This document shows, piece by piece, positions 465 to 40,942 of a stretch of 64,000 nt of DNA. Both the position numbers and the translations under genes were made by a program. Within the stretch, counting starts at the first letter, position 1, and every line of letters begins with the position of its first letter. The stretch comes from Lachnospiraceae bacterium (lineage in GTDB: Bacteria; Bacillota_A; Clostridia; Lachnospirales; Lachnospiraceae), in NCBI GenBank assembly GCA_021770615.1, contig JAETQR010000015.1, positions 21,941 through 85,940 on the forward strand. Reading direction: 5' to 3'. The notes under the pieces are model-generated. The model did not search any database and was not told the origin of the DNA. It saw nothing but the letters and a program-made list of their open reading frames with translations.

Positions 465-546
465 AGGAAGAGCAGCCAATTCCCCTTCAAAACTTTTCGC
501 AAGCTCCGCTTGTGTTTGTTTTGAAGGGGAATTGGCCGCTCTTCCT
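465..546. repeat. palindrome A1: conserved loop with locus-specific arms
   Basis: This is an inverted repeat with about 29-bp arms (one mismatch) around a 24-nt centre, TTTTCGCAAGC followed by TCCGCTTGTGTTT. The centre recurs almost unchanged at 26847-26937 (opposite orientation) and 26997-27084, while the arms are different in each copy. It lies just beyond the stop codon of the HD-GYP gene and so may also terminate that minus-strand transcript. Confidence 0.8.
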
Positions 547-574
547 GATTTCCCACCTTTTCTCTGCCTCCCTT

Positions 575-1270
575 TTACTCCGGCACCGTCCCATCCTCGA
601 TCATCTCGATCATATATGGCACGATGTTCGGATCAAAGTGCTTTCCACTGCACTCTTTCAGTTCTTTCAGAATATACTCCTTGTCATGATTATTTTTATA
701 AACTCTTTTACTTGACATCGTATCGTAGCAGTCAGCCACACAGATGATCCGCGCAGATAACGGAATCTCCTCACCTTTCAGCCCCTCATTGTAACCATTT
801 CCGTCATACCTCTCATGATGGTATCTGGCCCCGTCGCTGATCCCTTCGATCGCAGTAAAATCTTTTAAGATCTCACCGCCAATGGAGGGGTGGCTGCGGA
901 TGATCTGCATTTCCTCTTCTGTCAGTTTTCCGGGTTTCTTTAAAATACTGTCCGGTATCCCGATCTTCCCAATGTCATGAAGCATCGCCATATAATAAAT
1001 CTGTTCCTGTTCTTCTTCGGTAAATCCCATTCTTTTTGCAATTTCTCTCGAATACACCGCCACACGGATCGAATGGCCATTCGTATCCTCATCTTTTGCA
1101 TCGATCGCATGTGCAAATGTCTCAAGAGACTCATTCACGATGGACTTATAGACACGCTGTTTTCTCTGCAGCTCTTTTATTTTGGTACGTATGTACAAAA
1201 AACAAAATACCGTGCAGGACAATACAAATACACAAATCAAGGCAACCCATAAACTATCATTGTTTCCCAT
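575..1270 (-). CDS. membrane-anchored HD-GYP domain protein
   Basis: This 231-residue protein has one N-terminal membrane segment (about residues 7-27), a short linker and an HD-GYP domain. The HD motif is LHDIGKIG (about residue 98). The GYP region reads HHERYDGNGYNEG, so the canonical proline of GYP is asparagine. HD-GYP proteins are typically cyclic-di-GMP phosphodiesterases; the altered GYP may weaken that activity or change specificity. The start is supported by GAGAGGAAAT upstream. It follows the HAD gene by 13 bp, probably in one transcript, and palindrome A1 lies past the stop. The window also holds a GGDEF protein at 54064-55812. Confidence 0.85.
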   Translation of the reverse strand: MGNNDSLWVALICVFVLSCTVFCFLYIRTKIKELQRKQRVYKSIVNESLETFAHAIDAKDEDTNGHSIRVAVYSREIAKRMGFTEEEQEQIYYMAMLHDIGKIGIPDSILKKPGKLTEEEMQIIRSHPSIGGEILKDFTAIEGISDGARYHHERYDGNGYNEGLKGEEIPLSARIICVADCYDTMSSKRVYKNNHDKEYILKELKECSGKHFDPNIVPYMIEMIEDGTVPE

Positions 1271-1283
1271 ATTCCATTTCCTC

Positions 1284-2081
1284 TCAAATCAATTTGATCA
1301 ATTCCCTTAGTACTCCATCTTCCCTGTATGAACCGCATATCCCGCCGGCCACACATTTCAATTCCTCCCTGGCGTTTTCTACAGCAAAACTTTTCCCCGC
1401 CATTTTCAGCATATCAATATCATTCTGATTATCCCCAAACGCCATCGTCTCCTCTCTGGAAACCCCCAGCCTGTTCTGGATAAACTCCACTGCGCTCCCC
1501 TTTCCCGAAGACATCGGTACACAGTCAAGCCACTGTATCCCCGCCAGATTTAACCGGATACGCTTCTCCCACCTCGGACGAAACCATGGATCTGTCAGCT
1601 GTTCGACCATATTGTGATGATACAAAGAAATTTTTACGATATCATCCGAAATATTCGTTTGCAGATCCCCCACTGCTTCCATATCAAATCCATACGCATT
1701 CACCATCCAGCGGTACAATTCTGAATCTTCACTCGTAGCATAGTCACGTTTTACGCCACAGACCATAATATCACACTGCGGAATCTGTCTGGCATCCTCA
1801 ATAATCTCATGACAGATCTCCCACGGAATGATTTTTGAGTAAATGCATTCTCCCTGATAAAATACCAGGCTGCCGCCATCTACTGCAAAATAAATCATAT
1901 CCTTTACCGGTTCAAATAATTTTTCCACACTGACACGCTGTCTCCCGCTGCAGACAACAAACTTTATCCCCTTTTCACCCAGTCGTTTTATTACATCGTA
2001 ATATTTCGGATTAAAAGACTGAACCGATCCCCCATCCTCTACAAGCGTTCCATCCACGTCTGTGACCACAAGTCGGATCAT
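1284..2081 (-). CDS. Cof-type HAD-IIB family hydrolase
   Basis: This 265-residue HAD-superfamily phosphatase has motif I DVDGTL near residue 9, motif II around VVCSGR, and motif IV FGDNQNDIDML near the C-terminus. These features are typical of the Cof/YbiV group acting on sugar phosphates or other small phosphomonoesters, and the substrate cannot be told. I chose the ATG that begins MIRLVVTDVDG because the family starts just before motif I and a purine-rich GAGGGGGA lies upstream, though with a long spacer. It sits between the ilvC terminator and the HD-GYP gene, which it probably shares a transcript with. Confidence 0.85.
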   Translation of the reverse strand: MIRLVVTDVDGTLVEDGGSVQSFNPKYYDVIKRLGEKGIKFVVCSGRQRVSVEKLFEPVKDMIYFAVDGGSLVFYQGECIYSKIIPWEICHEIIEDARQIPQCDIMVCGVKRDYATSEDSELYRWMVNAYGFDMEAVGDLQTNISDDIVKISLYHHNMVEQLTDPWFRPRWEKRIRLNLAGIQWLDCVPMSSGKGSAVEFIQNRLGVSREETMAFGDNQNDIDMLKMAGKSFAVENAREELKCVAGGICGSYREDGVLRELIKLI

Positions 2082-2184
2082 ATTCTTAAAAAATCCCCCT
2101 CTTTCAATAATTTTCCTGCCAAAGCAGCTCGACACCGCCAGTTTAACCCCTGTTTCATCCCACACCATCAAGCAAATACAACGG

Positions 2185-2221
2185 AAAAAGAAAGCCCGGT
2201 CAGCACTCCTCCAACCGGGCC
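2185..2221 (-). terminator. ilvC intrinsic terminator
   Basis: On the minus strand GCCCGGT and ACCGGGC (2194-2200 and 2214-2220) form a GC-rich stem followed by a T-rich run. It lies directly after the ilvC stop codon and separates ilvNC from the HAD gene. Confidence 0.75.
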
Positions 2222-2236
2222 ATATATTACAACATT

Positions 2237-3283
<1,047 letters not shown>

Positions 3284-3299
3284 TTATAAAATATAAAGC

Positions 3300-3360
3300 C
3301 CCTCCGGTTAGAACCGGCGGATGGTTTTCAATATGTAAGGCGGATAACCCGCCATGAACC
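3300..3360 (-). other. small hairpins in the ilvN–ilvC spacer
   Basis: On the minus strand the spacer holds GGCGGGTTATCCGCC and CCGGTTCTAACCGG, the second followed by a pyrimidine-rich stretch. They could be a weak attenuator or an RNA processing site between ilvN and ilvC. I saw no T-box or leader peptide. Confidence 0.35.
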
Positions 3361-3390
3361 CGCGATCCCGGTTTCATCAGTTTGCTCTGG

Positions 3391-3879
3391 TTACTCGTCT
3401 AAAAATCCCCTCGCAAGCCCGGTGATCCCCGTGCGGACAAGTTCTTTTATCTCATAACCGTCCAGCAATTTTGTGAAAGCATTCAATTTCGCCTGATTTC
3501 CGGTCAGCTCGATCATCATGGAATCCGAAGCCACATCGACGATCTTGGCACGGAAGATCTCTACGATCGCATTGATCGCAGGCCTCGCCTCTTTTGCCGC
3601 CGAAACTTTTACTAAAATGAGTTCCCTGCACACCGAAGCCTCTCCCGTCAGTTCTTTCACTGCGATCACATTCTCAAGTTTACAGATCTGCTTCTCGATC
3701 TGGTCCAGTATGATCTTATCCCCGGTTACAGCGACCGTCATCCTGGAAACTGCTGCATTCTCTGTCTCGCCTACTGTGAGACTGTCTATATTATAACCGC
3801 GTCTGCTGAACAGACCTACGACACGGGACAAGGCTCCCGGCGTATTATCGATCAAAATAGATAGCACCATATTCTGCAT
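3391..3879 (-). CDS. ilvN: acetolactate synthase small (regulatory) subunit
   Basis: This 162-residue regulatory subunit of acetohydroxyacid synthase binds branched-chain amino acids for feedback inhibition. It has an N-terminal ACT domain with the typical LSILIDNTPGALSRVVGLFS stretch and RGYNIDSLTVG, then a second ACT-like domain that starts about residue 80. The length fits IlvH/IlvN. I chose the ATG eight bases after AAGGAG. A near-perfect promoter lies directly upstream. The catalytic subunit gene is not in the window, so the small subunit is separated from it or ilvB lies elsewhere. Confidence 0.95.
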   Translation of the reverse strand: MQNMVLSILIDNTPGALSRVVGLFSRRGYNIDSLTVGETENAAVSRMTVAVTGDKIILDQIEKQICKLENVIAVKELTGEASVCRELILVKVSAAKEARPAINAIVEIFRAKIVDVASDSMMIELTGNQAKLNAFTKLLDGYEIKELVRTGITGLARGFLDE

Positions 3880-3908
3880 ATCGATCACTCCTTACTGTTC
3901 AAAAACTA

Positions 3909-3937
3909 ATTGTACCAATTTCATCCATTCTTGTCAA
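3909..3937 (-). promoter_or_regulatory. promoter of ilvN–ilvC
   Basis: On the minus strand TTGACA (3932-3937) and TACAAT (3909-3914) are separated by 17 bp. It lies between the LCP stop and the ilvN start, so ilvNC has its own promoter within the larger minus-strand block. Confidence 0.8.
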
Positions 3938-3942
3938 CAAAA

Positions 3943-4980: not shown

Positions 4981-5010
4981 CTTATCCTCCGTTCCTTATG
5001 CGCACCTTCG

Positions 5011-5931: not shown

Positions 5932-5932
5932 A

Positions 5933-6874: not shown

Positions 6875-6875
6875 A

Positions 6876-13221: not shown

Positions 13222-13494
13222 TGGAAATCAATTTTTAATTGTTACTCTTCTCCCGAAAACTGATGAAAGATTGTACAATGGAGAGAATGTTTCCCGATAA
13301 GAACCCGCTTGCGCTTAAAATAAACATGTAGCGGTACAAAGGCTACAAGGTGTAAAAATCACACCTGGTGCGTAGCACCTTATACGCAGCCTAAGGACCG
13401 ACACGTTTATACGGTCCTTATCGGGAAATATTCTCTCCATTGTACAAAACTTCATTAAGTTTCGGAAAAGAGTATCAACTAAAAATTGATTTCC
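13222..13494. repeat. palindrome B1: about 115-bp conserved core with 78-bp arms
   Basis: This large inverted repeat has arms at 13222-13300 and 13417-13494 that match at about 85%, with unpaired differences. The core between them (13301-13416) is itself a nested hairpin and matches the core of the repeat at 31847-32097 in reverse orientation. Shared blocks are ATAAACATGTAGCGGTACAA, CTTATACGCAGCCTAAGGAC and the ATGTTTATACGGTC edge. At the apex B1 has AGGTGT..ACACCT plus GGTGCG..GCACC, whereas B2 has one short hairpin. The arms have no relation to those of B2. Confidence 0.85.
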
Positions 13495-13528
13495 ATATAT
13501 GGTTTATATGATTGGCGCCGTTGAACCA

Positions 13529-13600
13529 GGGTGCCAAAAGCACTTTGTTATGAAGGGGATTGGCAATATGCACATTAAGACAAAGGGCTTTTAACATCCT
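13529..13600. repeat. relic of palindrome family C (no core)
   Basis: An imperfect stem (AGGGTGCCAAAAGC with GGCTTTTAACATCCT) encloses GGGGATTGGCAATATGCAC. Both parts match the outer borders of the C repeats at 28018 and 28819 (GGGGTCAAAAGCCC and TTGGCAATATGCAC), but the roughly 95-nt C core is missing. It lies directly past the LytTR stop codon and could serve as its terminator. Confidence 0.55.
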
Positions 13601-21074: not shown

Positions 21075-21206
21075 TGCGAAAAATACAAAGGGACGCAAAT
21101 AAATAAGAATATATAGGGCACAGGCGGCGGAATTGATCTACGGATCGCAATTAAGCCGCCTGTGCCCTATATATTCTTATTTATTTGCTGGAGTCTTTGA
21201 TTTCGC
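21075..21206. repeat. palindrome D
   Basis: The inner 34-bp arms at 21094 and 21188 (GCAAATAAATAAGAATATAT and GGGCACAGGCGGC) are perfect. Weaker complementarity continues outward to TGCGAAA/TTTCGCA. The centre is a short GATCTACGGATCGC. No second copy of this centre was seen in the window. It lies directly after the chemoreceptor stop and may act as a bidirectional terminator with the convergent amidase gene. Confidence 0.8.
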
Positions 21207-21228
21207 ATCCTCACTATTATAAAGGGCT

Positions 21229-21394
21229 TGGCAATATGGATAAAAAAGAATAAAATCAACAGCCTTATGCACAATGGAGCTGAGACTCAGGAAATCGTGG
21301 AAGCCCTTGCTGAACACGATTTCCATGCAATGAGGCTCTGCGTAATGCTTCGTGCATCCGGCTGTTGATTTTATTCTTTTTTATCCATATTGCC
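21229..21394. repeat. palindrome C1: conserved C core with 36-bp perfect arms
   Basis: The arms (TGGCAATATGGATAAAAAAG plus AATAAAATCAACAGCC) are perfectly complementary over 36 bp. The enclosed core of about 94 nt matches, in reverse orientation, the core of the copy at 28018-28255, including GGAAATCGTGTTCAGCAA and the GATGCACGAA and GTGCATAA edges. It is adjacent to palindrome D, so the convergent space between the chemoreceptor and amidase genes holds two unrelated palindromes. Confidence 0.85.
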
Positions 21395-21420
21395 ACCCCG
21401 TTAATAAAATCCTGATCCAC

Positions 21421-25591: not shown

Positions 25592-26824
25592 ATGAAAAAA
25601 ATCACGAAAACCGTACTTTTTATTTTATTTTGTTTCACACTGTGTATTTCTGTCTCCCGGCAGGCGGATGCAAAAAAGAATTTTACGATTTCTTCCTCAT
25701 CCAAACCATATAAAAACAAATATGTAAAAACATCGTCTTATAATAAGTATACAAAGCATTATCTGACGATACGTTCTTATCTTGACTATATGGCCACAAA
25801 AGGAGGCGGCACGCTGACTTTAAAAAAAGGAACCTATAACCTCACAAATGCGATCCCTGTCCCCTCTAATGTCACCCTCATCTTAAAAGACGGGGTCGTT
25901 ATGAATAAGACAAATAACACACATCTGAAAACCCTGAAAGCCGGACATGTCATGATCGAGTGCGTCCGCGGTTCCAGATTAACGAAAAAGAATGTGGTCG
26001 GCGGCTACGGCGGCGAAAAGAACATCCGTATCGTGGGCGAAGGAAAAGTCGTTATGAACCTTGGAAAATGTAACAAAAGTGAGGCGATCCGTGTTCCCCA
26101 CTGTTCAAACGTATCAATCGAAAATATTTCTTTCACAAACCTCAGAGACGGTCATTTTATCGAAATCACTGCCGGTAAGGACGTTTCCGTTACAAACTGT
26201 ACGTTTTCAAACAATAAGAACGGAGAGCGCTGTGCCATCAATCTGGACACTCCGGATAAAGTCACAAACGGATTTAACGGAGCGTATTCAAAATTTGACA
26301 AGACACCGGATTTAAACATCACCATCCAAAATTGTGGATTTTACAATCTGTACCGGGGTATTGATACACACCGTTTTTCACCGAACAAATATCACACAAA
26401 TGTACAAATTTTAAACTGTACTTTTAAAAACTCAGTACAGAGTCCGATCATGATGGAAAACTGGAAAAATGCTGTCATCAAGGGAAATACGATCGATGGC
26501 GTGCAGGGATGGAACCAAAACAATATCCAAAAAGAAAAATTTGGTATCTTCATGCGCGGAGGTGTCATTGACCCTGTGATCAGTGAAAACAGTTTCAATA
26601 ACGTCTTTATGCCATTTTACGCAAAGGGGCACAAAGAGCCTGCCGGAGATATCGCCGCCCATTATCCGGCTACCTATAACAGTATATCCGGAGCTTCGAT
26701 CGAATCCATGAAAAATAACACACTGGGAGCAAATGCCATTCTCCGGTATTTTGCGATCAACCATCGTGAGATCCTGTATATCGCGAAGAGTGACAAGCAT
26801 TATGATGCGTACCAGTTTAATTAG
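25592..26824 (+). CDS. secreted right-handed beta-helix protein (pectate-lyase-like fold)
   Basis: This 410-residue protein has a signal peptide (about the first 27 residues, MKKITKTVLFILFCFTLCIS). Repeated short beta-helix rungs follow, such as VSIENISFTNLRDGHFIEIT, VSVTNCTFSNNKNG, LNITIQNCGFYNLYRGIDTH and VQILNCTFKNSVQSPIMMEN. The fold is that of polysaccharide lyases and glycosidases (Pfam beta-helix type), so a role outside the cell on a plant or host glycan is likely, but the catalytic residues and substrate are not clear. AGGAGG lies six bases upstream of ATG. Palindromes A2 and A3 separate it from the convergent thioesterase gene. Confidence 0.75.
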   Translation: MKKITKTVLFILFCFTLCISVSRQADAKKNFTISSSSKPYKNKYVKTSSYNKYTKHYLTIRSYLDYMATKGGGTLTLKKGTYNLTNAIPVPSNVTLILKDGVVMNKTNNTHLKTLKAGHVMIECVRGSRLTKKNVVGGYGGEKNIRIVGEGKVVMNLGKCNKSEAIRVPHCSNVSIENISFTNLRDGHFIEITAGKDVSVTNCTFSNNKNGERCAINLDTPDKVTNGFNGAYSKFDKTPDLNITIQNCGFYNLYRGIDTHRFSPNKYHTNVQILNCTFKNSVQSPIMMENWKNAVIKGNTIDGVQGWNQNNIQKEKFGIFMRGGVIDPVISENSFNNVFMPFYAKGHKEPAGDIAAHYPATYNSISGASIESMKNNTLGANAILRYFAINHREILYIAKSDKHYDAYQFN

Positions 26825-26846
26825 GATTTAATATGTGGTAGATCTA

Positions 26847-26937
26847 ACAAGGGGTAGGATACAGAGAAGTCTGAAAAACAAACACAAGCAAAGCTTGCGA
26901 AAAGTTTTTCAGACTTCTTTGTATCCTACCCCTTTGT
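26847..26937. repeat. palindrome A2
   Basis: The arms of about 33 bp (GGGGTAGGATACAGAGAAGT and TCTGAAAAAC, with the complement at 26904-26937) have one substitution and one extra base. The centre AAACACAAGC followed by AAAGCTTGCGAAAA is the reverse complement of the A1 and A3 centre with only a few changes. It lies 23 bases past the stop of the beta-helix gene. Confidence 0.85.
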
Positions 26938-26996
26938 AAGGTCTTCCGCATTGGAAGAAAACACGTGACGGGGAGAAACTGCGCCCGCAGAAAAAG

Positions 26997-27084
26997 GGAT
27001 GGAGAAGAAAAAACTTAGCGTTCAAAACTTTTCACAAGCTTGCTTGTGTTTGTTTTGAACGCTAAGTTTTTTCTTCTCCATCCT
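26997..27084. repeat. palindrome A3
   Basis: The arms GGATGGAGAAGAAAAAACTT and AGCGTTCAAAAC are perfectly complementary to the right side over about 32 bp. The centre TTTTCACAAGC followed by TTGCTTGTGTTT matches A1 at 465. It is 16 bases from the stop of the thioesterase gene. A2 and A3 are 60 bp apart in opposite orientation and have unrelated arms. Confidence 0.85.
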
Positions 27085-27099
27085 TTCCTGCCTGGTGAT

Positions 27100-27531
27100 C
27101 TATCTCTCCCCACCACCTGTCTTCTCCTTCATCCTCTGAAACAACTCATAAAACCGGGGGCTCTTCTTTTTCAGGTTCACCGGGCAGGAACCGGCGTCAA
27201 GAAAACAGTGTGCACTTTCTCCGGTACATCTGACCTGACCAGAGTCTTTATCTTCTACTGTATAAGAAATAACAAGACGGATCCCATTAAACTTTTCCAC
27301 TCTCGGAATGATCTTCACTGTCTCGCCAAATCCGGTCATGGACACATACCGGCAGCTGACAGAAACGACCGGACAAATAATATTTTCTTTCTCCATCCTG
27401 TCATATCCAAGCCCTTCCTTCTCCATCACATCAACCCGGCACTCTTCAAACCACCGGATATAATTTGAGTGATGGACCACTCCCATCCGGTCTGTCTCAT
27501 AATATTGTACTTTATGCTCATAAGAGTACAT
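27100..27531 (-). CDS. acyl-CoA thioesterase, hotdog fold (YbgC/FadM type)
   Basis: This 143-residue single hotdog domain has the catalytic pattern YYETDRMGVVHHSNYIRWFE, including the aspartate used by YbgC-type thioesterases. It would hydrolyse acyl-CoA thioesters of unknown chain. AAGGAG precedes the ATG. Its start overlaps the 3' end of the ArsC/Spx-like gene by 14 bases, so the two are co-translated. Its stop faces palindrome A3. Confidence 0.88.
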   Translation of the reverse strand: MYSYEHKVQYYETDRMGVVHHSNYIRWFEECRVDVMEKEGLGYDRMEKENIICPVVSVSCRYVSMTGFGETVKIIPRVEKFNGIRLVISYTVEDKDSGQVRCTGESAHCFLDAGSCPVNLKKKSPRFYELFQRMKEKTGGGER

Positions 27532-27877
27532 CTTCCCACTCCTTCTCACGAAATCCGGTAAGCACTGTTTTTTCCGTGACGATGATCGGCCTTTTCACAA
27601 GCATTCCATCCGTAGCCAGTAACTTAAGCTTCTCTTCCCGTGTCATTTGTTCCAACTTTTCCTTCAGATTCATTTCCCGGTAAAGCATACCGCTCGTATT
27701 AAAAAATCTCTTAATATCGGATCCGCTCTTTTCAAGCCATTGCTCCAATTCATCAAATGTGGGATTTTCTTCCTTTATGTGTCTGCTCTCATAAGAAATA
27801 CCATGATCATCCAGCCACTTTGCGGCCTTTTTACAGGTTGTACATTTCGGATACCAGACGAATAAAACTTTTTCCAT
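27518..27877 (-). CDS. ArsC/Spx family protein (thioredoxin fold)
   Basis: This 119-residue thioredoxin-like protein has a CXXC motif (CTTCKKAAKWLDDHG, about residues 12-15), then RHIKEENPTFDEL and the PIIV motif in KRPIIVTEKTVLTGF. This is the layout of the Spx/YffB/ArsC group. Members are either thiol-dependent reductases or RNA polymerase-binding stress regulators, and the sequence alone does not decide which. It overlaps the thioesterase gene and is divergent from the small membrane protein across palindrome C2. Confidence 0.85.
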   Translation of the reverse strand: MEKVLFVWYPKCTTCKKAAKWLDDHGISYESRHIKEENPTFDELEQWLEKSGSDIKRFFNTSGMLYREMNLKEKLEQMTREEKLKLLATDGMLVKRPIIVTEKTVLTGFREKEWEDVLL

Positions 27878-28017
27878 TGGTTATCTCTCTCCTTCCTTCT
27901 ACCTCATTCATATCTGACAAAACTACCTGTCCTCAATATATTGATACCATTATATCAGATTAAGCATATTTGTGTAAAGAAATGTATTATGGATACACTA
28001 TAAACATAATATAATAG

Positions 28018-28255
28018 GATGACGGGGTCAAAAGCCCTTGTTTTTTCATGTGTTGGCAATATGCACAAAAAACAATATCTTCGCAGCTGGATGCACGAAC
28101 CATTCCACAGAGCCTAGGGCGTGGAAATCGTGTTCAGCAAAGGCTTCCACGATTCCCTGAGTCTCAGTTTTATCGTGCATAATGCTGCTCATCTTATTGT
28201 TTTTTGTGCATATCGCCAGACTCTTTGATAAAAAGGGGCTTTTGACCCCGGCATC
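28018..28255. repeat. palindrome C2
   Basis: This is the fullest C copy. The outer stem GGGGTCAAAAGCCC pairs with GGGCTTTTGACCCC. Inside are TTGGCAATATGCACAAAAAA arms, then a core of about 95 nt containing GGAAATCGTGTTCAGCAA, which matches the core of C1 in reverse. It fills the divergent gap of 425 bases between the ArsC/Spx-like gene and the small membrane protein, where the promoters should lie; only AT-rich flanks remain for them. Confidence 0.85.
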
Positions 28256-28302
28256 ATAATAGATTACTATATCAAAAACAACATAGATCAATGGAGGTTC
28301 CT

Positions 28303-28812
28303 ATGAAATATCCGCTTCGGACGATCGAAACGATCAGTCTGCTCATCGCTGTCTTTCTTGGCGTTATCTTTCATTTTATTTACAACTGGAGTGGAGAAAA
28401 TCCCGTAGCAGGGATCTTCTTTCCTGTCAATGAGTCCACCTGGGAGCATTTAAAACTCATCTTTTTTCCCATTCTTCTTTTATCGATTGTGGAATACTTT
28501 CTTCTTCGCGCAGAATACAAAAATTTAATTTGCATTAAATTTATTTCGTCTCTCTTTGGCATGACACTCACTGTCGTCCTTTTTTACACATATCAGGGAG
28601 TCTATGGAAAAAACAGCGAAGTTATGAATATCCTGATCTACCTGATCTCCATGGCCGCCGCGTTTTTGTTTAGCTACCGTTCATTAAAAAACAGACGATT
28701 ATGCGGCGTCCCTGCCTCCCTGTGCCGCACCGGGTTTATCATTCTGGCATTCTTGTTTGCGGTATTTACGCTGTTCCCGCCACACATCGGGCTATTTGCT
28801 TCTCCTTTCTAG
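28303..28812 (+). CDS. small integral membrane protein (DUF6512-like)
   Basis: This 169-residue protein has about five hydrophobic helices, a conserved-looking PVNESTWEHLKLIFFPILLL block near residue 45, and LFPPHIGLFASPF at the very end. I associate this pattern with DUF6512-type membrane proteins of Clostridia, from memory, and the function is unknown. My recollection is that relatives continue a few residues after the PPHI motif, so the C-terminus may have been cut short by the palindrome that begins seven bases after the stop. GGAGG lies five bases before the ATG. It is bracketed by C2 and C3 in opposite orientation. Confidence 0.65.
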   Translation: MKYPLRTIETISLLIAVFLGVIFHFIYNWSGENPVAGIFFPVNESTWEHLKLIFFPILLLSIVEYFLLRAEYKNLICIKFISSLFGMTLTVVLFYTYQGVYGKNSEVMNILIYLISMAAAFLFSYRSLKNRRLCGVPASLCRTGFIILAFLFAVFTLFPPHIGLFASPF

Positions 28813-28818
28813 AAGAAG

Positions 28819-28928
28819 CTGGCAATATGCACAAAAAGCAGCATTATGCACGATTTCCACGCATGAAGCTCAGTGGAGTGGTTCGTGCATCCGGCTGCGA
28901 AGATATTGTTTTTTGTGCATATTGCCAG
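28819..28928. repeat. palindrome C3 (shortened core)
   Basis: CTGGCAATATGCACAAAAA (28819) and its complement (to 28928) enclose a core of about 52 nt that keeps both edges of the C core (GCATTATGCACGATTTCCAC and GTTCGTGCATCC) but lacks the middle. Its right half is a near-identical inverted copy (about 55 nt, few changes) of the left half of C2 at 28055-28110, including the arm. C2 and C3 are thus related by duplication, unlike the other copies. Confidence 0.8.
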
Positions 28929-28929
28929 A

Positions 28930-28952
28930 CCCCTTTATGAAAAGGGGCTTTT
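28930..28952 (+). terminator. terminator after the DUF6512-like gene
   Basis: CCCCTTT-ATG-AAAAGGGG followed by CTTTT forms a short intrinsic terminator adjoining C3. Confidence 0.65.
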
Positions 28953-28966
28953 GACACCCTAACCCT

Positions 28967-29033
28967 AATAAAAAAGAACACCACCCGCAGCCATGATCTC
29001 TATGTCCTTTGCGAAGTAGTGTTCTTTTTATTA
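28967..29033 (-). terminator. terminator after amt
   Basis: AATAAAAAAGAACAC (28967-28981) pairs with GTGTTCTTTTTATTA (29019-29033). On the minus strand it ends in a long T run, 22 bases past the amt stop. It should also stop plus-strand readthrough from the membrane protein gene. Confidence 0.75.
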
Positions 29034-29054
29034 AATTGTAGTTTAATTTATGTA

Positions 29055-30803
29055 TCAGTCGTCATCCTGCAATGCGTCAAACCCGCTCTCACCAGTTCTG
29101 ACTTTGATAACCTCCTCGACATCATATACAAAAATCTTTCCATCTCCGATATGCCCTGTATAAAGCGCCTGTTTTGCAACGTCGATCACCCGGTCGACCG
29201 GTACGGCACTCACGATGACTTCTACCTTGATCTTAGGAAGAAGCGTGAAATCTACAGGTACACCACGATAATATTCCGCGCTTCCTTTCTGCGTACCACA
29301 TCCGAGAACCTGTGTGACCGTGATCCCACTAACTCCAATATCGTTAAGTGCTGTTTTAAGTTCTTCAAACTTATTCTGCTTACATACGATCGAAATCTTA
29401 CTGATCTTTTCATCCCCGGCAGATTTCGTCACAGCTCCCGGTGCTTTTGCTGCCGGTGTTACCTCTGTGACAGATACTGCTTTTTCTACAGGAACACTCC
29501 CTATTGCTTCTTTTAACGGGCCGGCGCCTGTTGATGCCGAATAGAATCTGTCACCTGCCGGCATGAAATCAGCATATGCCGACGGAAGACCATGTTCTGT
29601 CGCATCCAGACCGAGAATTTCTTCCTCTGCCGTTACACGAAGCCCACACACTTTATTGATCACCGTAAAGATAACTGCCATCACCACGGCGGCATACAGG
29701 CCGATCACTACGACTCCTAAAAGCTGTACGCCAAACTGACGGAAGCCGCCCCCATAAAACAGACCATTTTCATAATCAAACAGTCCGACCGCCAGCGCAC
29801 CCCAGGCGCCATTGAAACCATGGACTGCGACAGCTCCGACCGGATCGTCCACTTTGCATACGTTGTCAACAAACCAGACGCCAAATACGACAAGAAGCCC
29901 ATCTACGATACCGATCACAGTAGCGCCGAGCGCATCTACATTCGCACATCCTGCTGTGATGCCAACCAGTCCGGCCAGCGACGCATTCAGACACATGGAT
30001 ACATCCGGCTTGCCATATTTGATCCAGGTAAATATCATACATACGGTAGTGGCAACTGCAGGAGCGATTGTAGTCGTAGACAGGATCTTTGCCATCTCCT
30101 CCACACTGCCCGCAGCGGCTCCATTAAATCCATACCAGGCAAACCAGAGGATGAAACATCCAAGCGCTCCGATCGTGATATTGTGCCCCGGTATTGCCTT
30201 CGGTTTCCCATCTTTGCCAAACTTGCCGATTCTGGCTCCTAATATAGCTGCACCCACAAGCGCCGTGATTCCACCGACCATATGGATAACCGCTGATCCG
30301 GCGAAATCGATAAAGCCAAGTCCGGCCAGCCATCCCTGACTGTTCCACGTCCACCCTGCCTCGATCGGATAGACCACAGCACTGATAATGATCGAATAAA
30401 TACAATACATACTGAATTTTGTACGCTCTGCCATAGCACCGGATACGATCGTCGCACAGGTCGCACAGAACACAAGCTGGAAAAAGAAATTAGACCAGTT
30501 AAAATTCGCAAAATCTGTGAACATCTGATACTCCGGCCTTCCGATCACTCCGAAAAAGTAGTTCTCCGAGTTCATGATACCATATCCTAAAAAAACAAAT
30601 ACGATCGTTCCCAGACAAAAATCCATCAGGTTTTTCATAATAATGTTTCCGGCATTTTTTGCCCTTGTAAAGCCAGTCTCAACCATGGCAAATCCCGCCT
30701 GCATAAAAAACACCAGTGCGGCACCGATCAGAAACCAGATACCGAATGCCACTTCTGAACTGGCCTGCGTGATAATGTTTGTTAAATCTTCTGCTAACTG
30801 CAT
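29055..30803 (-). CDS. amt: ammonium transporter fused to a PII signalling domain
   Basis: This 582-residue protein has an Amt/Mep channel of eleven membrane segments (about residues 17-430), with IGAALVFFMQAGFAMVETGF, a GGITALVGAAILGARIG segment and FAWYGFNGA/VHGFNGAWG pore-lining segments. After a linker of about 50 residues, a PII (GlnB) domain spans about 470-570 with KISIVCKQNKFEELKTAL and a T loop GTQKGSAEYYRGVP that keeps the tyrosine. In free form PII blocks Amt when nitrogen is plentiful; here gate and sensor are one chain. The start chosen follows AGGAGGA; an in-frame upstream ATG has no such site. A terminator-like hairpin lies in its leader. Confidence 0.93.
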   Translation of the reverse strand: MQLAEDLTNIITQASSEVAFGIWFLIGAALVFFMQAGFAMVETGFTRAKNAGNIIMKNLMDFCLGTIVFVFLGYGIMNSENYFFGVIGRPEYQMFTDFANFNWSNFFFQLVFCATCATIVSGAMAERTKFSMYCIYSIIISAVVYPIEAGWTWNSQGWLAGLGFIDFAGSAVIHMVGGITALVGAAILGARIGKFGKDGKPKAIPGHNITIGALGCFILWFAWYGFNGAAAGSVEEMAKILSTTTIAPAVATTVCMIFTWIKYGKPDVSMCLNASLAGLVGITAGCANVDALGATVIGIVDGLLVVFGVWFVDNVCKVDDPVGAVAVHGFNGAWGALAVGLFDYENGLFYGGGFRQFGVQLLGVVVIGLYAAVVMAVIFTVINKVCGLRVTAEEEILGLDATEHGLPSAYADFMPAGDRFYSASTGAGPLKEAIGSVPVEKAVSVTEVTPAAKAPGAVTKSAGDEKISKISIVCKQNKFEELKTALNDIGVSGITVTQVLGCGTQKGSAEYYRGVPVDFTLLPKIKVEVIVSAVPVDRVIDVAKQALYTGHIGDGKIFVYDVEEVIKVRTGESGFDALQDDD

Positions 30804-30954: not shown

Positions 30955-31002
30955 CCCGGTTTTTCAAAGATTACCCAAAATAAGTATCAAACAAGTCAAT
31001 TT

Positions 31003-31752: not shown

Positions 31753-31846
31753 TATCCTGCTCCTTTATCCAGTTCAACAGTAAGTTTCTATTTTATCTAT
31801 TCTATCATTTTTCCCCGGAAAAGAAAAGAGAAATCATTTTCCAAAA

Positions 31847-32097
31847 CACGAAAATTTTTAGCAATTAAAATTCATGAAAAGCTGAAAAAAATTCATACAG
31901 CATCGGGTATATTTCCTGATAAAGACCGTATAAACATGTCGGTCCTTAGGCTGCGTATAAGGCGCAGTCTTGCGCCTTGCAGCCTTTGTACCGCTACATG
32001 TTTATGTTAAGCGGGAGCGGGTCCGAATCAGGAAATATACCCGATGCTGTACAAATTTCGCTGGTTTCATGAATTTTAATTGCTAAAAATTTCCGTG
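31847..32097. repeat. palindrome B2; the right arm overlaps the end of thiD
   Basis: The arms (31847-31919 and 32028-32097) pair perfectly over the inner 28 bp (ATCAGGAAATATACCCGATG and CTGTAC) and over about 34 outer bp with one change, with a poorly matched stretch between. The core (31921-32026) is the reverse complement of the B1 core. The outer right arm encodes the last seven codons of thiD, so the left arm holds an inverted copy of coding sequence. The arms share nothing with those of B1. Confidence 0.85.
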
Positions 32098-32915
32098 CTT
32101 TGCAAACGGTAAAAATGATTAAGCGGGCCATTTCCCTTCCCCAAATCCATCCCATCCCGGATCGCACCCGTAATGTACTCCTTGGCATCCCCCACTGCCT
32201 CTTCCAACGAATCTCCCTGTGCCATTCCACAGGCGATCGCCGATGACAGCGTGCACCCGGTACCATGTGTGTTCTCATTTTCAATCCGTTCATTGCAATA
32301 CCATGTACCTGTACCAGACCGGTTGTTGTACAAAAAATCATCCGACGCTCCTTCTCCATGGCCTCCCTTGATCAGCACAGAACATCCATACCGTAGTGAC
32401 AGATTCTTTGCTTCCCGTTCCCTGTCCCTTCGGGACATTTCCTCCCCGGACAAAATCGTTGTACTACCCAGACTGCACGCCTCCGGCAGATTGGGGGTGA
32501 TGAGGTCCGCCAGAGGAAACAACGTTTTTGTAAGGGCTTTTTTTGCCGGAGGATCTAAAAGCGGCCGTCCACTTGTAGAGACAAGTACCGGATCGATCAC
32601 AACAAACGGCCTCTTTCCGGTAAGATCCCTGTATTTTCTCAAACAATCTGCCACCGCATAAAGATTATCTTCCACCGCTATCATCCCAATTTTTACAGCA
32701 TCCGGGAATATATCCTCAAATACCGCACTAAGCTGCATTCTTACCACTTCTGCCGGCACCGGCCAAACGCCCCGCACTCCCTGCGTATTCTGGCTCGTGA
32801 CAGCCGTTATCACACTCATCCCATACAGGCCATAGGCACCGATGGTCTTCAAATCTGCCTGTATCCCGGCGCCTCCGCTGCAATCGGAACCGGCTATTGT
32901 AAGCACTGTTTTCAT
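32076..32915 (-). CDS. thiD: hydroxymethylpyrimidine/phosphomethylpyrimidine kinase (ThiD/PdxK type)
   Basis: This 279-residue ribokinase-fold enzyme phosphorylates the HMP moiety of thiamine, and in some cases pyridoxal. It starts VLTIAGSDCSGGAGIQADLK, has VVIDPVLVSTSGRPLL, LIKGGHGEGASDDFLYN and the anion hole NTHGTGCTLSSAIA. The usual end would be near GPLNHFYRL; the extra residues STEIFSN come from the arm of palindrome B2. No other thi gene is nearby. Its start overlaps the stop of the histidine kinase gene by four bases. Confidence 0.9.
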   Translation of the reverse strand: MKTVLTIAGSDCSGGAGIQADLKTIGAYGLYGMSVITAVTSQNTQGVRGVWPVPAEVVRMQLSAVFEDIFPDAVKIGMIAVEDNLYAVADCLRKYRDLTGKRPFVVIDPVLVSTSGRPLLDPPAKKALTKTLFPLADLITPNLPEACSLGSTTILSGEEMSRRDREREAKNLSLRYGCSVLIKGGHGEGASDDFLYNNRSGTGTWYCNERIENENTHGTGCTLSSAIACGMAQGDSLEEAVGDAKEYITGAIRDGMDLGKGNGPLNHFYRLQSTEIFSN

Positions 32916-35674: not shown

Positions 35675-35696
35675 AACGGATCCCTCTCATATCCTC

Positions 35697-36167
35697 TCAT
35701 TGACGGCTGATACAAATACGCATCGGCGTGTAACGCATGCCATCCTTTTTCTGCTCCGGGGACAGCGGCTCAAACCCCATAGCCGCATACGCTTTCCTTC
35801 CCGCCGGCGATGAATTGACCGTGATATATTTAAGTTCCGGATTATTTTCCATACAATATACGGCTGCCCGCCTTACAAGCCTTTTTGCCACTCCCTGCCT
35901 CTGATACGGTTTGTCCACAAAAAGAAGGCTGATATGAAATCCACCCCGCATTGAGATCACACCTGTCAGCCTGTCCGATTCATAAGCCCCGAAAAATACC
36001 ATTTCCCCTGACCTCATCATCTCTTCCATATTTTCCCTTCCGATAAAATGCCGGAATGTCTTTCTCCCCATCTCTTCATAATCCTTCGCATCACATTCCT
36101 CAAACACCTTCCAGACTAAATCCAGCGCCTTGGAAAGCTGCCCTTTGTAAAGCCTGCATATCTGCAT
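35697..36167 (-). CDS. GNAT family N-acetyltransferase
   Basis: This 156-residue GNAT protein has the acetyl-CoA binding motif VDKPYQRQGVAKRLVRRAAV (Q/RxxGxG/A type) at about residues 86-105 and a C-terminal SSPAGRKAYAAMGFEP, the usual motif B. The acceptor is unknown. The ATG chosen lies shortly after a GAGAAGAAG site; a longer form would add 26 lysine-rich residues. It lies upstream of the hybrid kinase gene and is divergent from the GH2 gene. Confidence 0.85.
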   Translation of the reverse strand: MQICRLYKGQLSKALDLVWKVFEECDAKDYEEMGRKTFRHFIGRENMEEMMRSGEMVFFGAYESDRLTGVISMRGGFHISLLFVDKPYQRQGVAKRLVRRAAVYCMENNPELKYITVNSSPAGRKAYAAMGFEPLSPEQKKDGMRYTPMRICISRQ

Positions 36168-36199
36168 ATCATCTTCTTCTCTCTTTTTCTTATTTTTAC

Positions 36200-36228
36200 T
36201 TGAATCCTTATCTTTAGTATAATATAAT
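36200..36228 (+). promoter_or_regulatory. promoter of the GH2 gene
   Basis: TTGAAT (36200-36205) and TATAAT (36223-36228) are 17 bp apart. A reading-frame start at 36233 would fall before the transcription start, which supports the downstream ATG at 36278. Confidence 0.65.
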
Positions 36229-36277
36229 CTATATGAAAGTGTCAAAACTTTTTAACAATGAAAGGCAGGAACAGGAA

Positions 36278-39200
36278 ATGAAACAGCTTTTTAACGATAA
36301 CTGGAGTTTTTGCAAATTTCCACTGGAGACCCCGATGGAACAAATCCTGAATGCAGATAACTTCACACCGGTGGATCTTCCCCATGACTGGATGATCTAC
36401 GACACAGAAAATCTATATGAACAGGCAGTCAGCTGTTACAAGAAGACATTCCACAAGAATGAACTCCTGTCAGATACTCCTGCCAAAAAGATCTGGCTCG
36501 TTTTTGAGGGCGTCTACATGGATACAACTGTTTATCTAAACGGGACACATATATTTACGTGGAAAAATGGTTATTCCGAATTTATCATCGACCTGACAGA
36601 TCTCCTTGCGGATGGTGAAAACGAACTGCTTGTAAGAAACGAATATCACCTTCCAAACAGCCGCTGGTATCCGGGTTCCGGCATATACAGGGATGTGTGG
36701 CTCATCACATCTGACGACGCACATCTGGTACATAACGGCACCTACCTCTCCACCAGACGTCTTGGGAAAACGTGGGAGGTTTTCATGGATACGGAATACA
36801 TCTGTGAAAATGCGGACAATGCCGGAGAGGGAACGATCCGTCATATCATAACCGATGCAGACGGAAAAGAAATCCAGACTCATGAACACACGGTCATGCT
36901 CTCTTCCAAAGTTCAGACAGATAAACAGGTCATGACTGTGATCGATCCTTTATTATGGGATACGGAATCCCCTTATCTGTATCAGATCACATCCGAACTC
37001 TATGTAGATGGGGAAAGAAAAGATTTCCTGACACAAAATCTCGGTTTCCGTCAGATCGAATTTGATGCAGACAAAGGATTTTTCTTAAATGACAGGCATA
37101 TAAAAATAAATGGCACCTGTGAACACCATGTACTTGGTGCTCTCGGCGCCGCCATGAATAAAGCGGCTCTACGCCGCCAGCTCCTCACATTAAAGGAAAT
37201 GGGAGTAAACTCAGTGCGAAACGCACACAACATGCCGCCGGAGCATATGCTTGAGCTGTGTGACGAACTCGGCCTCCTGCTTTATACTGAAAGTTTTGAT
37301 ATGTGGGAGCGCACCAAAACCGATTATGATTATGGAAATGATTTCAGCGAATGGTGGAAAAAAGACCTGACAAGCTGGGTCAGACAGGACCGCAACCATC
37401 CGTGTGTGTTCATATGGGGAATCGGAAACGAAATCTACGATACCCATTTTGACCGGGGACTGGAGCTCACAAAAGAACTGCACGAAGCTGTCCGTGAGCT
37501 GGATTACCGGGAAAATGCCTATACGGCCCTTGCGTCAAATTATATCGAGTGGGAAGCCGCCCAGAGGACCGGGGAGATCATCGATCTCGTCGGATACAAT
37601 TATCTTGACAAGTGTTACGATGAACATCATGAAAAATATCCGGACTGGAAAATATTTGGAAGCGAGACAAGCGCCACGCTGCAGAGCCGCGGCATTTATC
37701 ACTTCCCATTATCAAACCGTCTGCTGACCACAGACGACCTTCAGTGCTCTTCCCTTGGCAACTGTACGACAAACTGGGGAGCCAAAAATTCAGAATACAC
37801 GATCATCAACCACAGAGACAGAGAATTCTGTTTCGGGCAGTATCTCTGGTCCGGCTTTGACTACCTGGGAGAGCCGACGCCATACTTTACAAAAAATTCC
37901 TATTTTGGTCAGATCGATACTGCCGGTTTTAAAAAAGATAGTTTTTATATGTATCAGTCAGCCTGGACTGACTATAAAAAGAACCCGGTCATTCATCTTC
38001 TGCCCTACTGGGACTTCAATGAGGGACAGCTGATCGATGTGCGAATTTTTTCTAACGCCCCCAAAGTGGAACTTCTCTACCAGGGAAAAAGCCAGGGGAT
38101 CGTGGAGTTTGACCATGAGCACGGACAGGTACTTTCGGGTGACTGGCAGATTCCTTATTCTGAGGGTACGATCACAGCTCTGGCCTATGATGAAAATGAT
38201 ACGGTCATCGCAAGAGATGAACAGCGTTCGTTCGGGGATCCGGCTACGATACGGCTCACACCGGATAAAAAGACGATGAATGCCGACGGAGAAGACCTGA
38301 TCTTCCTCACGATCGATACTCTTGACAAAGATCAGGTACTGGTGGCAAATGGGCGAAGCAGGATGCATGTATCTGTGAGCGGCGCCGGACGCCTGATCGG
38401 TCTTGACAATGGCGACAGTTCCGATTATGACCAATACAAAGGAACGAGCAAAAAATTATTCAGCGGAAAACTGTTAGCGATCATTGCCGCCAAAACAGAG
38501 CCCGGTGAGATCCATGTCACAGTCACATCACCATCCCTGCCGGATGCCACCATTACGCTAAACTCACTTCCGGCAAAGAAGCGGCGTGGCGTCTCCTGCC
38601 AGATGGAAAACCAGGAAAATCCTCTCATAGAAAAAACAAGAGCGGATGGCTCGGTCGTTCCTGACCGGACAAATGAAATACCGGTCAGAAAGATCGCACT
38701 TACAAACCACGGAACAAATCATCTGGATGCGGAACACACATCCGCCACGATAACAGCCAGACTCTATCCGGAAAATACGACTTACAACGACATTTGTTTT
38801 AAAGCCGTGACCCTGAACGGAGTAGACAGCAATGCGGTTAAAATAGAGACCGATCCCGAGACCAATACCGCTTTCCTGCAGGCGGCCGGGGACGGCGAAT
38901 TCCGTCTTCTATGTACATGCAATAACGGTCTGGATCACGTCGAAGTGATGTCTGAACTGGAATTTGAGGTATCCGGCCTCGGCCAGGCCACACACAATGC
39001 CTACGATATGGTTTCGGGCATTAATTACAGCCAGAGCTCCGATGACGGATTGATCCTCAGCTTTCAGGGTGGTGTATATATAACGGGAAATGAACGCACA
39101 ACTGTGACATTTGAAAATGTAGATTTTGGAGATTACGGTTCGGATGAGATCCATCTTCCGATCTTCTCTTTCAGCGACGATCTTCCGCTCGAAGTATGGC

Positions 39201-39808
39201 AGGGTATACCGGACACACCGCAAAAAGATCAGACGCCAGCCCAAACAGGTACTGTATCCCCGGATGGTGAATGCCTGCTAAGCGATACCTATCACGCAAA
39301 GAGCTGGTACAACCACTATCAGGAAAATGTATTTAAACTGTCAAAACGTCTCAAGGGAGTACAGACAGTCACGATCGTCGTCTATCCTGAAATCAAAATG
39401 TCCCTTCAGGGCTTCTACTTTACAAAGATTGAAAAAGCTTATGCGAAACTCAATGCATCGGACTGCACAAATGTTACCGGAGATATGTTTACGATCGACG
39501 GGGATGCGATCCGGGAAATCGGAAACAACGTGACCGTTGAATACGATAACATGCATTTTGATAAAGATGGATTTCATGGAATCACGATCCACGGACGCTC
39601 TCATATCGAAATGAATACAATACACGTCCGTTTCGCCCCGGCCGACGGAAGCGGTGATGTCATCAACCAGATCATTGACTTCCCATACAGCGACGAGGCA
39701 CAGACACTTACCTTTGATCTGGAACCTGTTTACGGAGACTATGACCTGAACCTCATCTTCCTCCCGGGATGTAAATTTGATCTGGAATGGCTGCAGATTG
39801 AGAAATAA
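36278..39808 (+). CDS. beta-galactosidase-like glycoside hydrolase family 2
   Basis: This large cytoplasmic glycosidase (about 1,176 residues, no signal peptide) has an N-terminal sugar-binding jelly roll (VDLPHDWMIYD, then GSGIYRDVWL), an Ig-like domain and the TIM barrel. The acid/base glutamate lies in FIWGIGNEIYDT and the nucleophile in FGSETSATLQSRG. The NGTCEHHVLGALG and SVRNAHNMPPEHMLELCDEL stretches are also typical. About 550 residues follow, with DUF4982-like and Ig/invasin-like sheets and a likely carbohydrate-binding tail, so it probably acts on host or plant beta-galactosides. Palindromic terminator sequence follows. Confidence 0.9.
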   Translation: MKQLFNDNWSFCKFPLETPMEQILNADNFTPVDLPHDWMIYDTENLYEQAVSCYKKTFHKNELLSDTPAKKIWLVFEGVYMDTTVYLNGTHIFTWKNGYSEFIIDLTDLLADGENELLVRNEYHLPNSRWYPGSGIYRDVWLITSDDAHLVHNGTYLSTRRLGKTWEVFMDTEYICENADNAGEGTIRHIITDADGKEIQTHEHTVMLSSKVQTDKQVMTVIDPLLWDTESPYLYQITSELYVDGERKDFLTQNLGFRQIEFDADKGFFLNDRHIKINGTCEHHVLGALGAAMNKAALRRQLLTLKEMGVNSVRNAHNMPPEHMLELCDELGLLLYTESFDMWERTKTDYDYGNDFSEWWKKDLTSWVRQDRNHPCVFIWGIGNEIYDTHFDRGLELTKELHEAVRELDYRENAYTALASNYIEWEAAQRTGEIIDLVGYNYLDKCYDEHHEKYPDWKIFGSETSATLQSRGIYHFPLSNRLLTTDDLQCSSLGNCTTNWGAKNSEYTIINHRDREFCFGQYLWSGFDYLGEPTPYFTKNSYFGQIDTAGFKKDSFYMYQSAWTDYKKNPVIHLLPYWDFNEGQLIDVRIFSNAPKVELLYQGKSQGIVEFDHEHGQVLSGDWQIPYSEGTITALAYDENDTVIARDEQRSFGDPATIRLTPDKKTMNADGEDLIFLTIDTLDKDQVLVANGRSRMHVSVSGAGRLIGLDNGDSSDYDQYKGTSKKLFSGKLLAIIAAKTEPGEIHVTVTSPSLPDATITLNSLPAKKRRGVSCQMENQENPLIEKTRADGSVVPDRTNEIPVRKIALTNHGTNHLDAEHTSATITARLYPENTTYNDICFKAVTLNGVDSNAVKIETDPETNTAFLQAAGDGEFRLLCTCNNGLDHVEVMSELEFEVSGLGQATHNAYDMVSGINYSQSSDDGLILSFQGGVYITGNERTTVTFENVDFGDYGSDEIHLPIFSFSDDLPLEVWQGIPDTPQKDQTPAQTGTVSPDGECLLSDTYHAKSWYNHYQENVFKLSKRLKGVQTVTIVVYPEIKMSLQGFYFTKIEKAYAKLNASDCTNVTGDMFTIDGDAIREIGNNVTVEYDNMHFDKDGFHGITIHGRSHIEMNTIHVRFAPADGSGDVINQIIDFPYSDEAQTLTFDLEPVYGDYDLNLIFLPGCKFDLEWLQIEK

Positions 39809-39818
39809 GCAAAAACCG

Positions 39819-39870
39819 GGCAGCATCCGGGGATAAATCGAATAGCCGGATGCTGCCTAAATTTGTTTTT
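39819..39870. terminator. bidirectional terminator after the GH2 gene
   Basis: GGCAGCATCCGG (39819-39830) pairs with CCGGATGCTGCC (39846-39857), with A-rich sequence before and T-rich sequence after, so it can stop transcription in both directions. Confidence 0.75.
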
Positions 39871-39913
39871 ATTTTATTATATTTCTTATACATGTCTGGG
39901 TACAGGTACACTA

Positions 39914-39956
39914 CAAGTTGCAAAGCAACTTGCTAATAAGTTCGTTAGAACTTATT
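39914..39956. terminator. twin small palindromes past the lipoprotein gene
   Basis: CAAGTTGC-AAA-GCAACTTG (39914-39932) and AATAAGTTC-GTTA-GAACTTATT (39935-39956) lie side by side, right after the lipoprotein stop. Neither has a strong T run, so terminator function is uncertain. Confidence 0.5.
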
Positions 39957-39957
39957 T

Positions 39958-40632
39958 TTATCCTGCCATTGCACTTACATCCATGCAGGCATTCAGAATC
40001 TGCGTATAGGTAGCCTCTGAGATAACAAATACATTTCCCTGTGATTTATCACGGGTTACTGCGACATCTATATTTGTCTCCTCGCCGTACTCAACGTTCT
40101 CCAACTTCTTCGTCATGATATCCAGAAGATATTCCAGTGTTTTTGCTGTGATTTCTTCCGTTGAAGGTACTTTATTCGAATTTTTCTTTACCTGTTTCTC
40201 CACATATTCTGTGGCTTTTTGCTGTGCCTCGCTCATTACCCCTTCAAATATTTTCATCTGGGATACCTTGACCGGAACAGTATAGGAATCACTGCTGTTT
40301 TTTACAGCATCTCCGACCTCATACTTACATTTACTATACATATTTTCAAAGAGCTCCCGGTACTTCTGCTGCATCTCCTCACTCATACTGACCGAACCTG
40401 TCATCGCCTCTAATTCCTTATCCATGCGTTGGTCATATTCTTTCTGGGCCTCTTCTTCTTTGATATTCGCCATCGCTGTATAGTCATCAAATTTTGCCTT
40501 TGTCAGAGCATCCAGACATCCCTGGACATATCTCTTGGCATCAAAATCCGTACCACATGCTGTCACACTCATGCAGATCACAAGTGCCAATGCGATCGCG
40601 ATCGCTCCTCGTTTCATTCCTCTTTGTCTCAT
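39958..40632 (-). CDS. lipoprotein of unknown function
   Basis: This 224-residue protein has a lipoprotein signal (GAIAIALALVICMSVTACGT, lipobox ending VTAC). After the lipid-bound cysteine comes FDAKRYVQGCLDALTKAKFD, a helical region and a lysine-rich stretch (QQKATEYVEKQVKKNSNK), then two conserved-looking strands. It resembles small secreted lipoproteins common in Clostridia that I cannot name further. AAGGAGG lies eight bases before the ATG. Palindrome E lies in its upstream region. Confidence 0.8.
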   Translation of the reverse strand: MRQRGMKRGAIAIALALVICMSVTACGTDFDAKRYVQGCLDALTKAKFDDYTAMANIKEEEAQKEYDQRMDKELEAMTGSVSMSEEMQQKYRELFENMYSKCKYEVGDAVKNSSDSYTVPVKVSQMKIFEGVMSEAQQKATEYVEKQVKKNSNKVPSTEEITAKTLEYLLDIMTKKLENVEYGEETNIDVAVTRDKSQGNVFVISEATYTQILNACMDVSAMAG

Positions 40633-40762
40633 ACAAATCCTCCTTATATTGACTATTGGTTCACATGTTTTCTCCCATTTTCTCACACGCCCTGTCTGGA
40701 TATTTTACCATAACTGGCGTATTTTGTAAATATGCATGTGAGGTTTTGGGATTACTACTCGT

Positions 40763-40942
40763 GTTTACAGATTCCGTATTTGCCAGAAGATGTCTGTCCA
40801 ACATGGGCACTCCCGTTCCATAAATACGCAGCGGCATGGACACATAAAAATGCAAAACATGCACTTTTATGTGTCTCATGCCGGCGCATTTATAACCCAT
40901 GTTGGACAGACATCTTCTGGCAAATACTGCAATTCTGTAAAC
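40763..40942. repeat. palindrome E (related to family B)
   Basis: The arms GTTTACAG..GTATTTGCCAGAAGATGTCT with GTCCAACATGGG match their complement over 36 bp without error, and the outer part differs by small indels. The core (40808-40894) is a nested hairpin. It begins CACTCCCGTTCCATAAATAC and contains GCAGCGGCATG; this resembles the B core start (CTCCCGCTTAAC, ATAAACATGTAGCGGTA), and both end in a TTTAT border. It is the main structure in the 378-base gap before the lipoprotein gene. Confidence 0.8.

Follow-up and report, generated by a model that had tools for sequence, protein, structure and literature searches.

Elements whose centres are alike from copy to copy, while the arms around them differ yet remain complementary to each other, raise the question of where such arms come from and what keeps them paired. 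We followed this question in a 64-kb stretch of DNA (hereafter, the window) from a sporulating Lachnospiraceae relative, for which the closest compared locus, L001 of a Roseburia sp. MAG, offers syntenic blocks of 78–88% DNA identity and one protein that is 93% identical. The window contains 11 hairpins with an ungapped score of at least 15 and 8 with a score of at least 25, and one 2-mer-shuffled window, taken as the chance control, contains none of either; the folding z-scores of three group A hairpins are −11.8 to −15.2 on both strands. The original prediction had listed ten inverted repeats in its text, all of which a sequence check located in their places, and nine in its title, which is one too few. 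Perfect arms with a score of at least 25 number 8 in the 64-kb window versus 1 in 770 kb of genome G001, an excess left uninterpreted because MAG assembly could hide long palindromes.

Group A is represented in the window by an element at 446–565 (+ strand; core 489–522 on the + strand; arms of about 48 bp), by A1 at 26849–26934 (− strand; core 26875–26908 on the − strand), whose orthologue in L001 has symmetrically changed arms, and by A2 at 26994–27086 (+ strand; core 27024–27056), in which a degenerate outer symmetry extends to the 3′ end of the gene at 27100–27549 (− strand). The group B elements lie at 13222–13495 (+ strand; R2 core 13301–13415) and 31838–32106 (− strand; R2 core 31925–32024), and the group E element, for which seven relatives were retrieved from G001, at 40763–40942 (+ strand; inverted repeat 40776–40927; R2 core 40803–40898); all three are members of the R2 model described below. 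Group C includes palindromes at 21217–21407 (no counterpart in L001), 28007–28266, and, in a shorter form, 28819–28928, together with a one-armed relic at 13529–13600 (+ strand), which had been predicted as a relic and is a C-like half copy. The group D palindrome at 21095–21188 (+ strand), absent from L001, has an apical core of the type TTGATCTACGAATCGCAA common to four G001 loci; D, which the original prediction had assigned to no group, is also a repeated core, with five copies recognised by eye including that of the window. The predicted conserved centre with differing arms is found in A, in the two copies of B, and in C; in C, the arms are partly conserved as well.

The B/E superfamily and its insertion sites

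Groups B and E together form a single superfamily of MITE-like palindromic elements of about 150–290 bp. Their predicted grouping is confirmed by alignment A4, composed of 19 B/E-type centres (one from Anaerosporobacter faecicola, L011), in which E has the centre of B, a centre also common to several further G001 palindromes. Briefly, the conserved centre consists of CGCTnnCGCT, a stem, nCGyAG, a hairpin, rCG, and a closing stem, and the CGy/rCG bases are paired in 19 of 19 sequences (columns 30–114, 31–113, and 32–112). Paired cells amount to 80.1% versus 69.1% after shuffling, and covariation to 0.337 versus 0.154 (0 of 500 shuffles as high), with two-sided changes in 55 cells and G-U in 2; further pair types (25 versus 26.3 shuffled; 414/500) are the one of five covariation measures that does not rise above the shuffles.

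A pattern search for B gave 27 copies in G001, the only one of 397 family genomes with matches, and none in the remaining 396 family genomes drawn. Of 397 Lachnospiraceae genomes, 116 contain a match to the R2 model, built from A4, at E ≤ 1e-4. The E-values are rough; by manual count, 54 of the matching genomes fall below 1e-8 and 16 reach the limit of 10 scored candidates. On 15 check loci, R2 matched solely the four model members. These searches demonstrate the spread of the core, and the B/E superfamily is widespread in Lachnospiraceae. At gathering score, Rfam returned a tRNA alone and no palindrome for the whole window, weak matches mostly of miRNA type below threshold, and no match for the palindromes of four other loci. 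As a separate observation, 15 of 15 TwoAYGGAY RNAs in 14 sequence windows lie 164–360 bp downstream of an element.

The ends of the elements support the predicted small mobile palindromes. Terminal repeats of the type CACGGAAATCAATTTT are recognised at both ends in 9 of 29 B copies, and several E copies have similar ends. In the nine two-ended B copies, a signal of target duplication is present, with a mean of 5.2 matching positions out of 9 versus 3.9 in cross pairs (permutation p 0.004) and a perfect match (9 of 9) in one copy; no target duplication was seen at L335 of G306. The B arms are homologous from copy to copy yet diverged, often with compensation.

Arms are near-identical in 10 of 10 fetched copies of genome G204 and common to 4 of 5 in G076; the eight copies first fetched from G306 differ chiefly in the middle of the arm, and each of the six from G245 has its own arms around a conserved core. 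The comparison of occupied with empty sites was possible at two places. One G245 copy has arms that resemble none of those in the five other fetched G245 copies; at its site, the relative G435 has neither arm (flanks 94% identical on the left and 80% on the right near the site). At the site of the G306 copy L335:9758–9918, neither arm is present in G475 (flanks 93% and 92%). The syntenic L001 site of the window's B copy at 31838–32106 likewise has no element and no arms, in intergenic DNA too diverged to count alone. Rows with unalignable junctions (L253:1307, L352, and L353) were left out of this comparison. Two other candidates, L253:14377 of G306 against G475 and L350:9453 against L357, were dropped as apparent deletions because G475 keeps the left end of the element. 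Where testable, these alignments indicate that the mobile palindromes bring their own arms at insertion, although the absences in G435 and G475 could be losses instead of empty sites. The originally proposed mechanism, in which an inserting element copies one flank in inverted orientation, thus fails at the testable B/E sites.

Symmetric change of paired arms

A palindrome family present dozens of times in a genome, in sister species with 82–99% identical flanks, provides a natural experiment on the persistence of perfect stems. In sequence around known copies, 49 cores were collected from G306 (403 kb) and 33 from its sister G475 (360 kb), at densities that are not genome averages since the sequence was chosen in this way; removal of 5 duplicates among the 82 left 44 and 33 distinct cores, respectively. 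We kept 11 orthologous occupied pairs on the basis of long matching flanks (on one side only for L253/L314); pairs joined solely by the right-flank repeat, with matches of about 135–290 nt, were dropped.

Over the 384 arm base pairs of these 11 pairs, 19 changes are symmetric (both arms altered, both states complementary), 24 are one-sided, and 1 is of another kind, whereas independent hits are expected to give 0.125 symmetric changes. The orthologues have thus undergone symmetric change, in the form of 9 transitions and 10 transversions, the latter being unable to proceed via a G-U pair. Two pairs hold 15 of the 24 one-sided changes: L253/L314 (8 one-sided and 0 symmetric) and L337/L353 (7 one-sided, 2 symmetric, and 1 other). 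For 11 of the 19 symmetric changes, the 11-mers of both states occur in no other sampled arm; for the remaining 8, another sampled copy also carries one or both states.

Paralogous copies give a similar picture. Arms passed the filter in 65 of 77 copies, and the 51 with arms of exactly 35 bp have 286 symmetric deviations from the consensus and 77 mismatched cells (21 G-U, 22 A-C, and 34 other); the similar numbers of G-U and A-C give no sign of selection on one transcribed strand. Among 30 G306 copies, the between-copy difference is 0.283 in the arms versus 0.099 in the cores. In the inner arms of B (26 of 29 copies, 25 pairs each), 430 cells follow the consensus, 88 are changed symmetrically, 106 on one side, and 26 otherwise, so that the claim of uncompensated arm differences in B1 was right for part of the changes and missed the compensated ones. 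With inherited mismatches counted repeatedly, G-U outnumbers A-C in the B arms of G001 and the window when these are read on the core strand (75 versus 46 in 26 of 29 copies; 44 versus 20 in the inner arms), and in the A arms on the opposite strand (20 versus 12 in 11 of 14 loci; L026, L027, and L031 left out). Altogether, the arms differ from copy to copy because the two arms of each copy evolve in concert, a process demonstrated in relatives of the superfamily rather than in the window itself.

Group A and its surroundings

Group A, with a core of 34–42 nt and arms of 15–48 bp, is lineage-restricted and less settled than B/E. Copies were kept from 10 loci of G001, 1 of G011, and 3 of the window. 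The R1 model matches 6 of 39 genus genomes, and its matches in G004, G005, G007, and G014 (L020, L021, L023, and L024) and at L034 of G001 were discarded by eye as not A; in a family-wide search (best 13 candidates per genome scored), G001 alone of 397 genomes matches at E ≤ 1e-5. The two A elements at orthologous positions in the window and L001 differ in their arms mostly by symmetric changes, namely 6 symmetric (3 transversions) and 3 one-sided changes in 23 pairs of A1, and 2 symmetric, 2 one-sided, and 1 other in 19 pairs of A2. The G001 site that matches the palindrome at 446–565 has no such palindrome and neither arm.

Beyond the perfect arms, the A flanks retain a weak inverted symmetry (9.46 versus 6.16 in cross pairs; n = 14, p < 1e-4), whereas ordinary hairpins show no such outer symmetry in G001 (n = 35, p 0.16), in relatives (n = 28, p 0.84), or in distant genomes (n = 8, p 0.09). 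The inverted similarity of A2 to the neighbouring gene 3′ end was equalled by 1 of 300 null gene ends, and in the six remaining comparisons of A or D sites with gene ends, p was 0.03 (D versus L001 coding sequence), 0.09, 0.13, 0.20, 0.36, and 0.76. Rough ORF calling places 7 of 10 distinct A sites between convergent genes and leaves the other three ambiguous. A terminator-like pattern is present at both A cores scanned (26700–29100; 9 sites there versus 2.0 in shuffles), and several A arms are followed by T-runs, as judged by eye. The arms of A and D may also act as bidirectional terminators between convergent genes. The prediction that terminator function alone does not account for the arms is supported. 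We extend the same reading as for the B/E superfamily to A, C, and D, on less evidence.

Origin of the complementary arms and relation to known systems

The best explanation is probably that these are mobile palindromes whose paired arms co-evolve through arm-to-arm template switching. An element inserts with its long complementary arms travelling along, and the inserted arms would then mutate like weakly constrained DNA. The palindrome may fold during replication, at which point local template switching (quasipalindrome correction) would often copy a change of one arm into the other. As a consequence of such copying, the arms would drift together, remain complementary, and become locus-specific, while the centre would remain recognisable, presumably retained because the mobility machinery needs it. 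The template-switch step itself is what we infer; homogenisation of inverted-repeat arms by template switching is described, for yeast inverted repeats and RNA genes, in PMC8794818 and PMC8604942. In a more speculative version, which we regard as rather improbable, the arms would be rebuilt within the life cycle of the element, which would pass through a single-stranded hairpin intermediate with a GTAG-like core and copy arm from arm at each transposition or replication. The element would then be selected solely for having some matching pair of arms, and would be a mobile element with free stem sequence and inherited foldability.

The main rival to arm-to-arm template switching is selection for base pairing, in which the hairpin would have a function, at the RNA level or as folded DNA, and compensatory mutations would maintain the pairing of the arms; if strong, such selection could produce the symmetric changes instead. 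The strand bias of mismatches in the B and A arms, the placement of A between convergent genes at 7 of 10 sites, and the terminator-like tails at both scanned A cores are what it would lead one to expect. It is at odds with the balance of G-U and A-C cells in the 51 copies (21 and 22), with the transversions that make up about half of the symmetric changes, and with the R2 core (2 G-U cells against 55 changed on both sides), and it would require selection at dozens of loci in a single genome, as with the 44 distinct cores in the sampled G306 sequence; we consider it unlikely. Several of the same features would also fit insertion of the 42-nt core of A, and perhaps of D, into the loops of older terminator hairpins whose stems became the arms: A lies 3′ of genes that are mostly convergent, T-runs follow several of its arms, and in relatives the A1/A2 site is occupied by ordinary terminators. 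The stems of those terminators are unrelated, at a divergence too great to be decisive, the symmetry of A runs past its arms, unlike that of ordinary hairpins, and G001 lacks either arm at the site of the 446–565 palindrome, which together make loop insertion quite doubtful.

Inverted copying of the neighbouring sequence to the other side of an inserting core would account for the six fetched G245 copies with conserved cores and individual arms, and it draws further support from the residual symmetry beyond the A arms, which ordinary hairpins lack, and from the similarity of A2 to a gene 3′ end. Nevertheless, the two relatives' sites with neither arm contradict it for B/E, the terminal repeats and target duplications of B and the arms common to copies in G204 and to 4 of 5 in G076 argue against it as well, and only 2 of 7 gene-end tests reach p < 0.05; overall we hold this origin to be very unlikely, although it may still apply to group A. 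Ectopic gene conversion between copies, which would move whole arm pairs from locus to locus, is in keeping with the 8 of 19 symmetric changes that have at least one state in another sampled copy. In the other 11, both states are unique to the locus within the sampled part of each genome, so that no other sampled element accounts for them; conversion moreover leaves the origin of symmetric variants unaccounted for, and appears highly improbable as the source of the concerted change.

Counts of symmetric and one-sided changes can separate template switching from compensatory selection, a distinction usually approached via RNA genes, and stem covariation in bacterial repeats need not indicate a functional RNA. 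Among the first 10–15 papers listed by each search of the open-access literature, we saw none that describes the B/E element. Of the known families, MITEs and tagged REPs come nearest, and the elements belong fully to neither. Like the prokaryotic MITEs of the review PMC10969869, the elements are short, multicopy, and intergenic, with terminal inverted repeats and, in B, a target-duplication signal; unlike them, they have a conserved centre and variable yet mutually complementary arms. The GTAG/CGTC-tagged REPs of PMC3733652, some dimers of which lie inside longer palindromes, similarly have a hairpin after GTAG-like bases, whereas the present elements are much longer, with a partly paired tag and arms of at least 30 bp that vary by copy; in place of the 20–40 bp hairpin with an unpaired terminal tag by which REPs are defined, we find a longer element with paired CGy/rCG bases. 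The main text of that paper has no words beginning with "Firmicutes", "Clostridi", or "Lachnospir". Template-switch homogenisation is known for RNA genes, yeast coding DNA, and E. coli (PMC8794818, PMC8604942, and PMC7202029), and the symmetric multi-base changes that keep stems perfect in these accounts resemble those seen here; unlike the hosts and loci described there, it would here operate in a family of mobile elements in Lachnospiraceae. The novelty lies in a superfamily, widespread in Lachnospiraceae, that allows the homogenisation of arms to be counted.

RNA neighbours of the R2-type cores

The stretches fetched around known palindromes in two sister genomes, G306 (loci L331, L334, L335, L336, L341, L342, and L345) and G475 (L351, L353, L356, L364, L368, L369, and L370), cover 271 kb and are hence not a random sample; within them, an R2-type core, i.e., the conserved centre of the B/E superfamily, lies 164–360 bp upstream, and on the same strand, of all 15 TwoAYGGAY RNAs (RF01731). 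By our estimate, only a few percent of these RNAs would be so placed near such cores by chance alone. These stretches contain 32 R2-type cores.

Several palindromes of G306 and G475 (those in L253, L331, L332, L339, L351, and L314) have the same nested hairpin insert, ~40 nt in length and located close to the closing stem (CCCCGATCTTGTATCGGGG). A 49-bp hairpin (L158:4662–4710), consisting solely of both B terminal repeats, is apparently an internal-deletion derivative.

Hairpin density and other features of the window

Hairpins with an ungapped score of at least 25 number eight in the 64 kb of the window (1–64000), versus one in 770 kb of the relative G001 and none in 380 kb of other relatives; this surplus may be either genuine or an effect of MAG assembly. 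A reading frame encoding a hydrophobic product of 40 residues (147–269, minus strand), which may resemble a small type I toxin-like peptide, is located within a stretch (65–401) having a second copy in G001 (contig C120, 79%). The short repeat F (39866–39966) has ~14 matches in G001.

Loops resembling the group A core

Relatives devoid of group A, namely G004 (L134; G004:C8:19195), G005 (L128:12104), and G007 (L138:7420), possess long hairpins whose loop is of the GCAAGCTTGC type. This loop is similar to the inner portion of the A core, a resemblance rather than an established homology.
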